Assembly (NCBI RefSeq): GCF_000336695.1
Contig: NZ_AOMC01000015.1
Span: 1-64,000 of the forward strand
Direction: 5' to 3'
DNA length: 64,000 nt
Source of the DNA: Halococcus morrhuae DSM 1307
GTDB lineage: Archaea; Halobacteriota; Halobacteria; Halobacteriales; Halococcaceae
Part shown: positions 53,938 to 60,405 of the stretch, one piece after another
How positions within the stretch are numbered: position 1 is the first letter of the stretch
How the letters are laid out: every line of letters begins with the position of its first letter
The notes under the pieces: model-generated
What the model was told of the DNA's origin: nothing
The model's input: only the letters and a program-made list of their open reading frames with translations
Databases searched by the model: none
Program-made: the position numbers and the translations under genes

Positions 53938-54903
53938 CTAAAACCGATCGAGGCCCGCCTGTCGGCGCTGGCGTCCATCGGGATCGGCCACCCACGACGA
54001 GCGCCGATCGCGTTCCGCGTCGACGTCGACATCGGGTGGGGCTCCGGGTTCGTGACCCGCACATTCGACGCCACATTCGGCCGCCGGATGGACGAATCGT
54101 CCCTTCCACTCACAGTACGGCATCCCACGCGCGCCCGCGTATTCACCGTCCTCGACTTGTGCACAGTGTGGAAAGTCATCGATGCGCCAGCCCTTTCCGT
54201 AGGCGCGTTCGGCGATGCGGCGGCGTGCCCGCGCCTTTGCAGCAGGCCCCACCGGCTCTATCGCCGTTTCAGTCGGTCGGCGGTCGCCGATGTCGATGCC
54301 ACACTCCGTCGGCGAGAGGGTTGTCGGCTCGCGCAGCACTTCCCTGATGCCTTGGTCGGGGTCGAACCGCCAGACACCCACCTCGTCGGGGATCCGATGA
54401 AGATGCGCACCGGTCACGTGCGAGGCGGTCGCGAGGATCACTTCGTCGAGCAGTCCGAGGCTCACGTCCCGGCGGAGCTGGGCTTCGAGATCGCCCGGCC
54501 GGCCGAGGTCGGGTTTGTTCTCGATGCCGACGAGTTTGCCGAACCAGTCGTCGGGATAGCGCGCCGTTTGGCGGACGTACTCGCGCCCGCCGCGGCGCTC
54601 GCGTTCGAAGAATCCGATCTCGATCGCCCGGTCGGTCGCGGTCCGTGCCCGCTCGGGATGGCAGTCGAAGGCGTCCTTCCAGTAGCGCGCCGTGCCGACG
54701 CCGACGTTGCTCTCGATCGCGGCGTCGGGGATCTCGTGTGGGGTGAGTTGCGCTCGCGCGTCGAAATCAGGCCCGGGTTCGACGTGGACGATATCCATCA
54801 CCCGGTTGCCGTTGAGGCTCGTGCTAAGCTGGCGGCTCACGATCCCCTCGATATCGGCTTCGAGGCGGGCACACAGTGCTAGCTCGAACGCGAACTCGCG
54901 CAC
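53938..54903 (-). CDS. DUF5787-like protein, possible iron-sulfur PD-(D/E)XK nuclease
   Basis: 321 residues from GTG 54903 (VREFAFELALC). I recall this as a haloarchaeal DUF5787 family protein with no assigned function. Read by eye, residues 117-130 contain P-D-x9-E-x-K (YPDDWFGKLVGIENKPD), the PD-(D/E)XK nuclease core, followed by Gln142 in LEAQLRRDV, which resembles the QxxxY helix of RecB/Cas4-type nucleases. One cysteine near the N-terminus (Cys11) and four near the C-terminus (Cys247, 264, 277, 281) resemble the split Fe-S cluster of Cas4/AddB. Nuclease activity is inference. Its stop is 115 bases upstream of the thermosome gene. Confidence 0.7.
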   Translation of the reverse strand: MREFAFELALCARLEADIEGIVSRQLSTSLNGNRVMDIVHVEPGPDFDARAQLTPHEIPDAAIESNVGVGTARYWKDAFDCHPERARTATDRAIEIGFFERERRGGREYVRQTARYPDDWFGKLVGIENKPDLGRPGDLEAQLRRDVSLGLLDEVILATASHVTGAHLHRIPDEVGVWRFDPDQGIREVLREPTTLSPTECGIDIGDRRPTETAIEPVGPAAKARARRRIAERAYGKGWRIDDFPHCAQVEDGEYAGARGMPYCEWKGRFVHPAAECGVECAGHEPGAPPDVDVDAERDRRSSWVADPDGRQRRQAGLDRF

Positions 54904-54950: not shown

Positions 54951-55634
54951 TCAGACCCCGAGCCCCGCGGCGAGATCGTGGATGCTCTCGATCGTGAGGT
55001 CGGGATCGCCGTCGAACGGTTCCCACGGCTGGTCGTCGCGGTCGATCCAGACACCGTGCATGCCGGCGTGTTCGGCTCCCTGGACATCGAACCAGCCCGC
55101 CGAGACGTGAGCGATCTCGTCGATCGGCGTGTCGGTGCGCTCGGCCGCGTGGCGATAGAGCGAGACATCGGGTTTGAACGTGCGAATCTCGTCGGCACTC
55201 ACCGTGTCCGCGACGAGGTCACCGATGGTGGCGCTCTCGACCATCGAATCGAGCATCGCCGGGTTCCCGTTCGAGACCACGTAGCAGTCGTAGCCGCCGT
55301 CGTTGAGCCGCTCGATGCCGTCGCGTACGTCGTCGAACACATCGAGGTTGTGGTAGGTTTCGAGGATCGCCTCGCGTTCGTCCTCGGTGAGATCGATATC
55401 GTGAGCGGCGAGTGCGGCCGACAACGCGTCACGCAGGATCTCGTAGAAGGGCTGGTAGGTGTCGAGATCGCCGGCGACGAACGTGTAGGCCAGCGAGCGC
55501 TCGCGCCAGAGCGTCGACACCGGTTCCGGGTTCGCGACGTGCTCGGCGAGCGCGTGCTCGACGCTCTCGACGTCGACGAGCGTGCTGTACGAATCGAAGG
55601 TCACGGTTGTGACCTGGTCAGGATCGAGAGCCAT
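54951..55634 (-). CDS. HAD hydrolase, haloacid dehalogenase type II-like
   Basis: 227 residues. The nucleophile Asp14 lies in VTFDSYSTLVD, with a cap-domain arginine in LWRERSLAYTF, SNGNP as motif II, FKPD with the motif III lysine, and VSAGWFDVQGA as motif IV. This is the pattern of L-2-haloacid dehalogenases and related phosphatases; the usual FDxYGT has Ser in place of Gly. Substrate not known. It lies 47 bases upstream of the DUF5787-like gene on the same strand. Confidence 0.88.
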   Translation of the reverse strand: MALDPDQVTTVTFDSYSTLVDVESVEHALAEHVANPEPVSTLWRERSLAYTFVAGDLDTYQPFYEILRDALSAALAAHDIDLTEDEREAILETYHNLDVFDDVRDGIERLNDGGYDCYVVSNGNPAMLDSMVESATIGDLVADTVSADEIRTFKPDVSLYRHAAERTDTPIDEIAHVSAGWFDVQGAEHAGMHGVWIDRDDQPWEPFDGDPDLTIESIHDLAAGLGV

Positions 55635-57302: not shown

Positions 57303-57440
57303 GAAATTACGGTTACGGAGCGCGAAACATAACCGTTTCCCCGGTGATGGATGATCCGTCCGGCGTCGAACGGCGGCCGTGATATATGGAACAGCAGGTT
57401 TATGAACGACTCGGGGCGTAGTTGTCCTATTACTTTCGAG

Positions 57441-58685
57441 ATGACACGGAACCACCAACAACCGGAGGTGAACATCGGGCTGGTCGGCCACGTCGACCAC
57501 GGCAAGACGACGCTCGTGCAGGCGTTGAGCGGCTCGTGGACCGACCAGCACTCCGAGGAGATGAAACGCGGCATCTCCATCCGGCTCGGCTACGCCGACG
57601 CGACCTTCCGGGAGTGTCCCGACATGGACGCGCCCGAACGATACACCGTTGCGGAAGAATGCCCGGACGGCACGGAGAGCGAGCCCCTCAGAACGGTGTC
57701 GTTCGTCGACGCACCGGGCCACGAGACGCTGATGGCGACGATGCTCTCGGGCGCGTCGATCATGGACGGCGCGGTGCTCGTCGTGAGCGCGACCGAGACC
57801 GTCCCACAGGCCCAGACGCAGGAACACCTGATGGCGCTCGACTCGATCGGCATCGACAACATCGTGATCGCCCAGAACAAGGTCGATCTCGTCGATAACG
57901 ATCGCGCGCGCACGAACTACGAGGAGATCCAGGAGTTCGTCGCCGGAACGGTGGCCGAGGACGCACCCGTCGTCCCCGTGAGCGCCGGCCAGGAGGTCAA
58001 CATGGACCTGCTGATCCAGGCCATCGAGGAGGAGATCCCGACGCCCGAGCGCGATCCGGACGCCGACGCACGGCTGCACGTCGCCCGCAGCTTCGACATC
58101 AACCGTCCGGGAACGCGCGCCGACGAACTGCTCGGCGGCGTGCTCGGTGGTAGTCTCGTCGCCGGCGAGCTCACCCCGGACGAGGAGATCGAGCTCCGAC
58201 CGGGTCGCGAGGTCGAACACGGTGGCCAGACCGAGTGGCAGCCGATCACGACCGACGTGCGCTCGCTTCAGGCCGGCGACGAATCCGCCGAGAGCGTGAC
58301 GCCAGGCGGACTGTTGGGGGTCGGCACCGGGCTCGATCCGAGCCTGACGAAGGGCGACGGGCTCGCCGGGCGGATCGCCGGTCCGCCGGGGACGCTCCCG
58401 CCGACGCGCGAGACGTTCACGATGGAGGTCTCGTTGCTCGATCGCATCGTCGCCAGCAGCGACGACGGGGAGAGCACGGACGTCGAGCCCGTTTCGACCG
58501 GCGAGCCGCTGATGTTGACCGTTGGGACCGCCACGACGGTCGGCTCGGTCACGAGCGCGCGCGACGACGAGTGCGAGGTCGCGCTCAAGCGGCCGGTGTG
58601 TGCGGCCGCCGGCGCGAGCATCGCGATCAACCGCCGGGTCGGAGCGCGCTGGCGACTCATCGGCGTCGGCACGCTGACCGAATGA
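57441..58685 (+). CDS. eif2g: Translation initiation factor aIF2 gamma subunit
   Basis: 414 residues from ATG 57441 ([10 protein letters not shown]). GTPase core: [10 protein letters not shown] (residues 16-25), DAPGHE and AQNKVDLV. It binds Met-tRNAi and GTP. The zinc-knuckle segment keeps only two cysteines (RECPDMD and EECPDGT) where other aIF2-gamma proteins have four, so zinc binding is doubtful. It leads the conserved block with the PIN, Rpo7, Spt4 and dephospho-CoA kinase genes. A TTTATG box lies at about 57399-57404. Confidence 0.96.
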
Positions 58686-59062
58686 ACGAGAGGGTGCTCA
58701 TGGACACGAACGCGCTGATGATGCCCGTCGAATGCGACATGCGCGTCTTCGATGAGCTCGATCGGCTGCTCACCACGCCCGAACTCCTCGTGCCGCGGGC
58801 GGTGCTCGACGAGCTCGACGCGCTTTCGGGGAGCCACGGCGAGGAGGCCGTCGCGGCGAGCGTCGGGCGCGATCTGAGCGAGCGCTGTCGGCCGGTCGAA
58901 CACGAGGCGACCGAGGCCGACGACGCCTGCGTCGAACTCGCCGGCGAGCGCTGCGAGCTGGTCTGTACGAACGACCGCCCGCTGCGCGAGCGGGTGCTCG
59001 AACGAGGTGTGCCGGTCATCGGACTGCGCGGTGAAAACACGCTAGCGATCACGGAGCCATAA
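58682..59062 (+). CDS. PIN-domain ribonuclease, Fcf1/VapC-like
   Basis: 126 residues, four-base overlap with aIF2-gamma. The PIN acidic set is D8 (MDTNALMMP), E in [10 protein letters not shown] in [12 protein letters not shown] and D in [12 protein letters not shown]. Its place inside the translation cluster, always after aIF2-gamma in haloarchaea, points to rRNA processing rather than a toxin; there is no antitoxin gene. Confidence 0.88.
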
Positions 59063-59637
59063 TGTACAAACGAGTTAGACTTACGGATACGGTGGAGGTA
59101 CCGCCACAGCTGCTCGCGGACGTCTCCGCGGGGATGGTGAAACGACTGTTGCAGGACAAGCTCGAAGGGCGACTGGACGAGGAGGTCGGCAGCATCGTCA
59201 GCGTCACCGAGGTCCACGACATCGGCGACGGGCGCGTACCGCCCGGCCGGCGCGACCACGAGGGGTCGGTCTACTACGAGGCGGAGTTCGACGCCGTCAC
59301 CTTCGACCCGCAGATGCAGGAGGTCATCGACGGCGAGGTCGTCGAGATCGTCAACTTCGGCGCGTTCGTCGGGATCGGCCCGATCGACGGCCTGCTCCAC
59401 GTCTCACAGATCAGCGACGAGTATCTCGCCTACGACGAGGACGGCCAGATGCTCGCCTCGCGCGAGTCGGACCAGACCCTCGGCGTCGGTGATTCCGTGC
59501 GGGCACGCATCGTCACCAAGAGCATCGACGAGCGCAACCCCCGGGACTCGAAGATCGGTCTCACGGCGAAACAGGTCGGGCTCGGAAAACACGGCTGGCT
59601 CCGCGAGGAGCGCGAACCCGCGGCGGCGGGTGAGTGA
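59062..59637 (+). CDS. rpo7: RNA polymerase subunit Rpo7 (E')
   Basis: 191 residues. N-terminal tip domain ([20 protein letters not shown]) and a C-terminal S1/OB domain (GEVVEIVNFGAFVGIGPIDGLLHVSQISDEY). With Rpo4 it forms the RNA polymerase stalk. The start overlaps the PIN gene by one base. Spt4 follows directly. Confidence 0.96.
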   Translation: MYKRVRLTDTVEVPPQLLADVSAGMVKRLLQDKLEGRLDEEVGSIVSVTEVHDIGDGRVPPGRRDHEGSVYYEAEFDAVTFDPQMQEVIDGEVVEIVNFGAFVGIGPIDGLLHVSQISDEYLAYDEDGQMLASRESDQTLGVGDSVRARIVTKSIDERNPRDSKIGLTAKQVGLGKHGWLREEREPAAAGE

Positions 59638-59639
59638 GC

Positions 59640-59837
59640 ATGGCGACCAGACGCGTCTGTCGCGAATGCCATCGCGTGCTCGACTCGCCCGACCAGCAGA
59701 CCTGTCCGGCCTGCGGGTCGTCGAGTCTGACCGAGGACTGGGCGGGCTACGTGGTCATCTCCCACCCCGAAACCAGCGAGATCGCGAGCGAGATGCAGGT
59801 CACCGAGCCCGGTCGCTACGCGCTGAAGGTGCGCTAG
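59640..59837 (+). CDS. spt4: Transcription elongation factor Spt4 (RpoE'')
   Basis: 65 residues from ATG 59640, preferred over GTG 59634. The zinc ribbon uses CRECH and CPACGS pairs, and DWAGYVVISHPETSEIA is the Spt5-binding face. It partners Spt5 on elongating RNA polymerase. Confidence 0.95.
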   Translation: MATRRVCRECHRVLDSPDQQTCPACGSSSLTEDWAGYVVISHPETSEIASEMQVTEPGRYALKVR

Positions 59838-59838
59838 C

Positions 59839-60405
59839 GTGGCCGGCGGCGAGGGCGGATCGGACGACCTCGACGTGTTGCTCACGCTGCCCGACGAGCT
59901 CCGCGGCGCGTTCAAAGACCCCCTCGGCCCGATCCACACCGACGCGAACCGCCTCCGTCCCGATCTCGGCGAGCCGGTGATCGCGGTCGGCGACGTCGTC
60001 ACTCGCCACCTCACCCAAGCCGGCGTGCGCCCCGACCTCGCGATTCTGGACTGGGTGACCGAGCGCGAAGCCCTCTCCGAGAGCGAAAAACCAGATATCA
60101 CGGGCTACGGCGGGCGCATCGACGTCGAGAACCCGGCGGCAGGACTCTCGGCAGCCCTCCTGCGCGCGCTCGGCTGCGGTATCGAGCGGGACGAAAAAAC
60201 AGTCATCGTCGTCGACGGCGAGGAAGACCTGGCGACCGTCCCCGTACTCGCGGTCGCCCCCGACGGCGCGAGCGTCGTCTACGGCCAACCCGGCGAGGGG
60301 ATGGTCCACGTCCCAGTCGATTCGGAGACACGGACGCATGCACGTGAACTGCTCGCGAAGATGGACGGCGACGAGGCGGTGCAGGACGCGCTCGGCGGGT
60401 TCTGA
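59839..60405 (+). CDS. GTP-dependent dephospho-CoA kinase
   Basis: 188 residues with GTG start 59839, one base after the Spt4 stop. DUF359 family: VGDVVTRHLTQAGVRPDLAI, the region GRIDVENPAAGLS and the acidic VVDGEEDLATVPVL are typical. It phosphorylates dephospho-CoA with GTP to finish archaeal CoA synthesis. It is usually followed by ribosomal genes; here gene remnants intervene. Confidence 0.93.
   Translation: MAGGEGGSDDLDVLLTLPDELRGAFKDPLGPIHTDANRLRPDLGEPVIAVGDVVTRHLTQAGVRPDLAILDWVTEREALSESEKPDITGYGGRIDVENPAAGLSAALLRALGCGIERDEKTVIVVDGEEDLATVPVLAVAPDGASVVYGQPGEGMVHVPVDSETRTHARELLAKMDGDEAVQDALGGF

Follow-up and report, generated by a model that had tools for sequence, protein, structure and literature searches.

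DUF5787, a two-copy haloarchaeal protein family predicted to be a PD-(D/E)XK nuclease with a nested winged helix

The core gene set of haloarchaea includes genes without a known function, an acknowledged gap; 55 haloarchaeal signature proteins have been reported and a function was predicted for one only (PMC3287961). The window analysed here, a stretch of 64,000 nucleotides from Halococcus morrhuae DSM 1307, raises the question of what such a gene may encode. On its minus strand (53938..54903) lies a gene with a GTG start that specifies 321 amino acids and a stop codon, and its product matches the whole PF19100 (DUF5787) model of Pfam, with positions 1-278 of 278 aligned at 340.9 bits (E 9.3e-102) against a cut-off of 25, which confirms the family identity suggested earlier. 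NCBIfam was found to hold no model for DUF5787, the family is not mentioned in the literature searched, and a sequence search returned no related solved structure. A sequence-only reading of the gene had proposed an iron-sulfur PD-(D/E)XK nuclease of the Cas4/AddB type, specific to haloarchaea and acting in repair or defence. The PD-(D/E)XK part of this proposal is supported by topology, motifs, fold search and profile comparison, whereas the Cas4/AddB-like Fe-S part is not. It is very probable that DUF5787 proteins have a PD-(D/E)XK fold whose active site is intact, and they are likely to be metal-dependent nucleases whose predicted activity would most likely be the cutting of DNA in haloarchaeal genome maintenance. 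A role in repair is plausible.

The restriction to haloarchaea was borne out. PF19100 is present in 193 of the 194 Halobacteria genomes sampled, usually in exactly two copies each, and in essentially all Halobacteria both paralogues are on the chromosome. Among 393 genomes of the phylum, no member was found outside this class; a single non-Halobacteria match at E<0.001 is to the zinc ribbon of a methionyl-tRNA synthetase and was set aside as a chance match. The viral contigs scanned contained no relative. A tree built from 172 distinct sequences divides, with a support of 100, into two clear groups, B (n=93), which includes the window gene, and A (n=79), and the two groups of paralogues are about 35% identical. 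The second copy of H. morrhuae (G000:C135:69358-70221; L002, L098), which the sequence-only reading had overlooked, is about 38% identical, lies on another contig and belongs to group A. Because each group is spread across the families sampled, the duplication is considered to be old, and the two paralogues probably differ in the structures they act on or in the pathways they serve. A third match occurs in about 13 of the 194 genomes, e.g., G026, G045 and G063. The sole Halobacteria genome without a match (G021) is small, at 1.9 Mb, and represents a separate family of the same order.

An AlphaFold2 model of the window protein, built with 93 sequences, has a mean pLDDT of 90.8 and a pTM of 0.88. 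Its elements are, in order, a helix (residues 3-17), two strands (21-27 and 35-43, the latter with D37), an insert, a strand at 121-129 that carries E128 and is followed by K130, a helix at 139-149 with Q142, and a strand at 154-159. This order, alpha-beta-beta(D37)-beta(E128,K130)-alpha(Q142)-beta, matches the PD-(D/E)XK core, with the insert placed between beta2 and beta3. According to the AlphaFold2 elements and the alignment, the first half of the nuclease core comprises residues 1-46 (54766..54903, minus strand), namely helix A with E7, E15 and the near-invariant C11, beta1 with R24-Q25, and beta2 with R34 and D37. The second half, residues 113-200 (54304..54567, minus strand), is defined by the model, the alignment and the profile comparison, and holds the YP-D-W segment, beta3 with E128-N129-K130-P-D-L, helix B with Q142 and D146, and beta4 with later strands. 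From this topology, D37, E128 and K130 would be expected to converge in space. The insert between the two halves (residues 47-112; 54568..54765, minus strand) spans about 65 residues and consists of helices followed by a two-stranded wing at 99-112, in which R107 and R111 are conserved. Foldseek matched this region to MecI, SqrR and other winged-helix repressors in the PDB, including ArsR-type winged helix-turn-helix (wHTH) folds; the insert had also been missed by the earlier reading. The model of paralogue A is of lower confidence (pLDDT 71.9) and poor toward its C-terminal end, and its matches in the PDB were mainly to winged-helix structures. Covariation was too noisy to yield contacts apart from a few beta-beta pairs.

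The conservation of individual residues was assessed in an alignment of 172 non-redundant sequences from both paralogue groups. All residues named beforehand (Cys11, P117-D118, E128-N-K130, Q142, Cys247, Cys264, Cys277 and Cys281) occur in the protein at the positions given, and those that proved to be conserved throughout the family are E128, K130, Q142 and the four C-terminal cysteines, whereas D118 and Cys11 are not. E128, N129, P131, L133, Q142, D146, C247, C264, C277 and C281 are invariant (172/172). The E-x-K motif (E128-N129-K130; 54514..54522, minus strand) retains its lysine in 171 of the 172 sequences; the one relative with a change at this position, to Asn, keeps all remaining motif residues (L119; G017:C1:1029500-1031600). 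Q142 (54478..54480, minus strand), a motif-IV-like Gln, is present in 172/172 and lies on the predicted helix 139-149, in line with what had been proposed. D118 had been put forward as the catalytic acid; this assignment is untenable, since the position is a gap in 146 of the 172 relatives and the site reads Tyr-Pro-[D/E/N/Q/G/R]-Trp across the family, with or without an extra residue. The variable residue is mostly Asp, and about ten sequences lack any acid there. The role is filled instead by D37 (54793..54795, minus strand), which had escaped notice, is invariant (172/172) and is, to judge from the Asp that aligns with it in sce7726 proteins, the predicted motif-II acid. The pattern that characterises PD-(D/E)XK enzymes, i.e., D ... 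(D/E)-x-K together with a Gln on a helix, is found in the form of D37, E128, K130 and Q142. E15, R24, Q25 and R34 are also invariant in this alignment, as is E7 wherever the N-terminus is complete; E7 and E15 had not been remarked on before.

The sce7726 family provides the profile evidence for this assignment. Weak matches to its NCBIfam model (NF033832) were obtained for 11 of the 93 members, over the half that contains E-x-K and with a best E of 0.0039; the score of DUF5787 is 13.8 bits, against a family cut-off of 70. With a profile built from 11 sce7726 proteins (L268, L276-L285), hhalign aligned group B at E 1.6e-5 (score 40.0) and both groups together at E 5.9e-5 when the insert was removed, and at E 3.5e-4 when it was retained. 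The highest control scores were 22.0 for 200 column shuffles, 12.6 for the reversed profile and 22.5 for 11 unrelated haloarchaeal families. Group A alone gave no significant hhalign alignment to sce7726. Over about 60 residues, D37 pairs with Asp, E128-N-K130 with E-I-K and Q142 with Gln, and the following strand is in register. The Asp and the Glu are separated by 87-97 residues in DUF5787 and by only 11 in sce7726, which places the winged helix in the beta2-beta3 turn. The sce7726 proteins differ from DUF5787 in having neither the winged-helix insert nor the Cys4 tail; those found here are mostly encoded on bacterial plasmids and the family itself is uncharacterised. Their Asp ... E-[IL]-K ... 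Gln pattern is clear, and they look like PD-(D/E)XK nucleases themselves. They are annotated by name only, and on plasmids an sce7725 gene often comes directly after theirs.

Fold searches gave a further line of comparison. In a library of viral protein models, Foldseek ranked MmcB-family DNA repair proteins first, fourth and ninth, with a best E of 4.6e-4 at probability 1.00 and a TM-score of 0.35 to the best MmcB model. Matches in the PDB were weak, the best being AF2093 (2ph7; E 5.9e-3, probability 0.94, TM 0.24 at most), for which no describing paper was found in the literature searched. TM-scores this low would follow if the common part were no more than a small core, and for that reason the fold search is insufficient by itself. 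MmcB is described as a PD-(D/E)XK endonuclease of crosslink resistance in Caulobacter (PMC9578287). MmcB (PF06319) and DUF5787 would share the PD-(D/E)XK type, but MmcB is smaller and no nested wHTH was seen in the match; the Pfam MmcB model matched none of the DUF5787 members searched, and a search of 197 genomes of the phylum found no MmcB. By its modelled fold only, MmcB would be the nearest functional analogue. The Holliday-junction resolvase Hjc (PF01870) resembles DUF5787 by eye in its acidic helix, Asp and E-x-K, which are alike in kind and in spacing, but hhalign detected no profile similarity to Hjc or NucS, and Hjc is encoded separately in genomes that carry DUF5787.

The cysteines bear directly on the Cas4/AddB reading, in which Cys11 and three C-terminal cysteines would hold a split Fe-S cluster. 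This reading draws on a resemblance: Cas4/AddB proteins (PF01930) have PD-(D/E)XK chemistry and cysteines toward both ends, their Fe-S staple being formed by one N-terminal and three C-terminal cysteines (PMC3466216), and DUF5787 likewise combines a predicted PD-(D/E)XK core with conserved cysteines, one near the N-terminus and several near the C-terminus. The likeness is superficial, as the families differ in the number and spacing of the cysteines and in the N-terminal requirement. C247, C264, C277 and C281, which had been pointed out correctly, are each invariant (172/172) and form a C-terminal Cys4 module (residues 245-285; 54049..54171, minus strand) modelled at pLDDT above 90. There are four of them rather than three, and their spacing is x12-18, x11-12 and x3 in nearly all sequences, with no CX2C. 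C11 (54871..54873, minus strand) is exchanged for Ser or Ala in 4 of the 93 group-B proteins (L034, L121, L134, L137) that keep all four C-terminal cysteines, and therefore is not an obligatory cluster ligand. A dispensable Cys11 is unlike the situation in Sso0001, in which every single Cys-to-Ala change rendered the protein insoluble (PMC3466216). The profile-profile comparison that had been suggested revealed no similarity to Cas4 (hhalign E 0.47 and 0.32), and the Pfam Cas4 model matched none of the 93 DUF5787 members. A Cas4/AddB-type enzyme with a split Fe-S cluster is very unlikely. In the simplest reading of the cysteine pattern, the Cys4 site is self-contained and C-terminal, and is probably a zinc site, zinc being more likely than Fe-S; a related nuclease structure holds zinc in place of Fe-S (PMC3466216).

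Two other identities, an RNA-directed protein and a non-cutting regulator, can be weighed against conservation and gene context. At about 47 of 63 loci, group B genes are divergent from a conserved operon of aIF2-gamma, PIN_9, RpoE, Spt4 and DUF359, and a conserved neighbour devoted to information processing would fit a PD-(D/E)XK enzyme or binder that acts on RNA or at transcription-translation interfaces. Yet group B is divergent from the aIF2-gamma operon and not co-transcribed with it, and paralogue A is located elsewhere, where 16 of 20 loci have a NUDIX hydrolase gene immediately before it and most have a DUF5797 gene oriented toward it. Both wHTH domains and PD-(D/E)XK enzymes are, moreover, mostly DNA-acting, and a role on RNA is considered unlikely. 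The basic wing residues R107 and R111 would also suit a DNA-binding regulator that uses a nuclease fold without cutting. Degenerate nuclease folds normally lose their catalytic residues, whereas D37, E128 and Q142 are retained here in 172/172 sequences and K130 in 171/172, which makes such a regulator very unlikely.

The preferred reading, a nuclease of genome maintenance, also has to be separated from the defence role that had been suggested. No PADLOC defence model matches the window protein, and only weak, scattered matches were obtained for other DUF5787 members. The contexts of groups A and B are neither mobile nor defence-like. The near-universal chromosomal pair and these contexts, together with the lack of relatives on viral contigs, lend no support to defence and point to housekeeping genome maintenance. 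No operon with known repair genes was seen in the DUF5787 neighbourhoods. The haloarchaeal signature protein Ral was considered as a possible identity, of which the neighbourhoods give no sign.

As a nuclease, DUF5787 could work as follows. D37 on beta2 and E128 and K130 on beta3 would form the catalytic centre and, by analogy with other enzymes of this fold, bind Mg2+, while Q142 and E7 or E15, on flanking helices, may assist catalysis. The winged helix beside the catalytic strands would keep DNA, duplex or branched, in place at the active site, and the C-terminal Cys4 module, with zinc more likely than Fe-S, would brace the fold. The chemistry is of a known kind; to our knowledge, a wHTH nested in the catalytic hairpin combined with a Cys4 tail, and strict two-copy retention within one class, are new. 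The nesting is a possible route by which a nuclease may gain substrate choice. The chances appear evenly balanced that DUF5787 is a new PD-(D/E)XK family, with a wHTH that interrupts the catalytic beta-hairpin and a Cys4 module closing the fold, whose two ancient, non-redundant copies perform a universal, haloarchaea-only DNA-processing step outside current models of haloarchaeal repair. The genetic model Haloferax volcanii carries DUF5787, and this near-universal, catalytically intact pair of predicted nucleases is open to gene deletion there.

In the window itself, the cluster of aIF2-gamma, PIN_9 protein, RpoE (Rpb7-like), Spt4-like and DUF359 genes occupies 57351-60405 on the plus strand, and a thermosome subunit gene lies downstream of DUF5787. 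A gene for a HAD-family hydrolase (54951-55634), likewise on the minus strand, is located 47 bases upstream of DUF5787; it is not a conserved neighbour in most other genomes, and the two are possibly co-transcribed in this genus.
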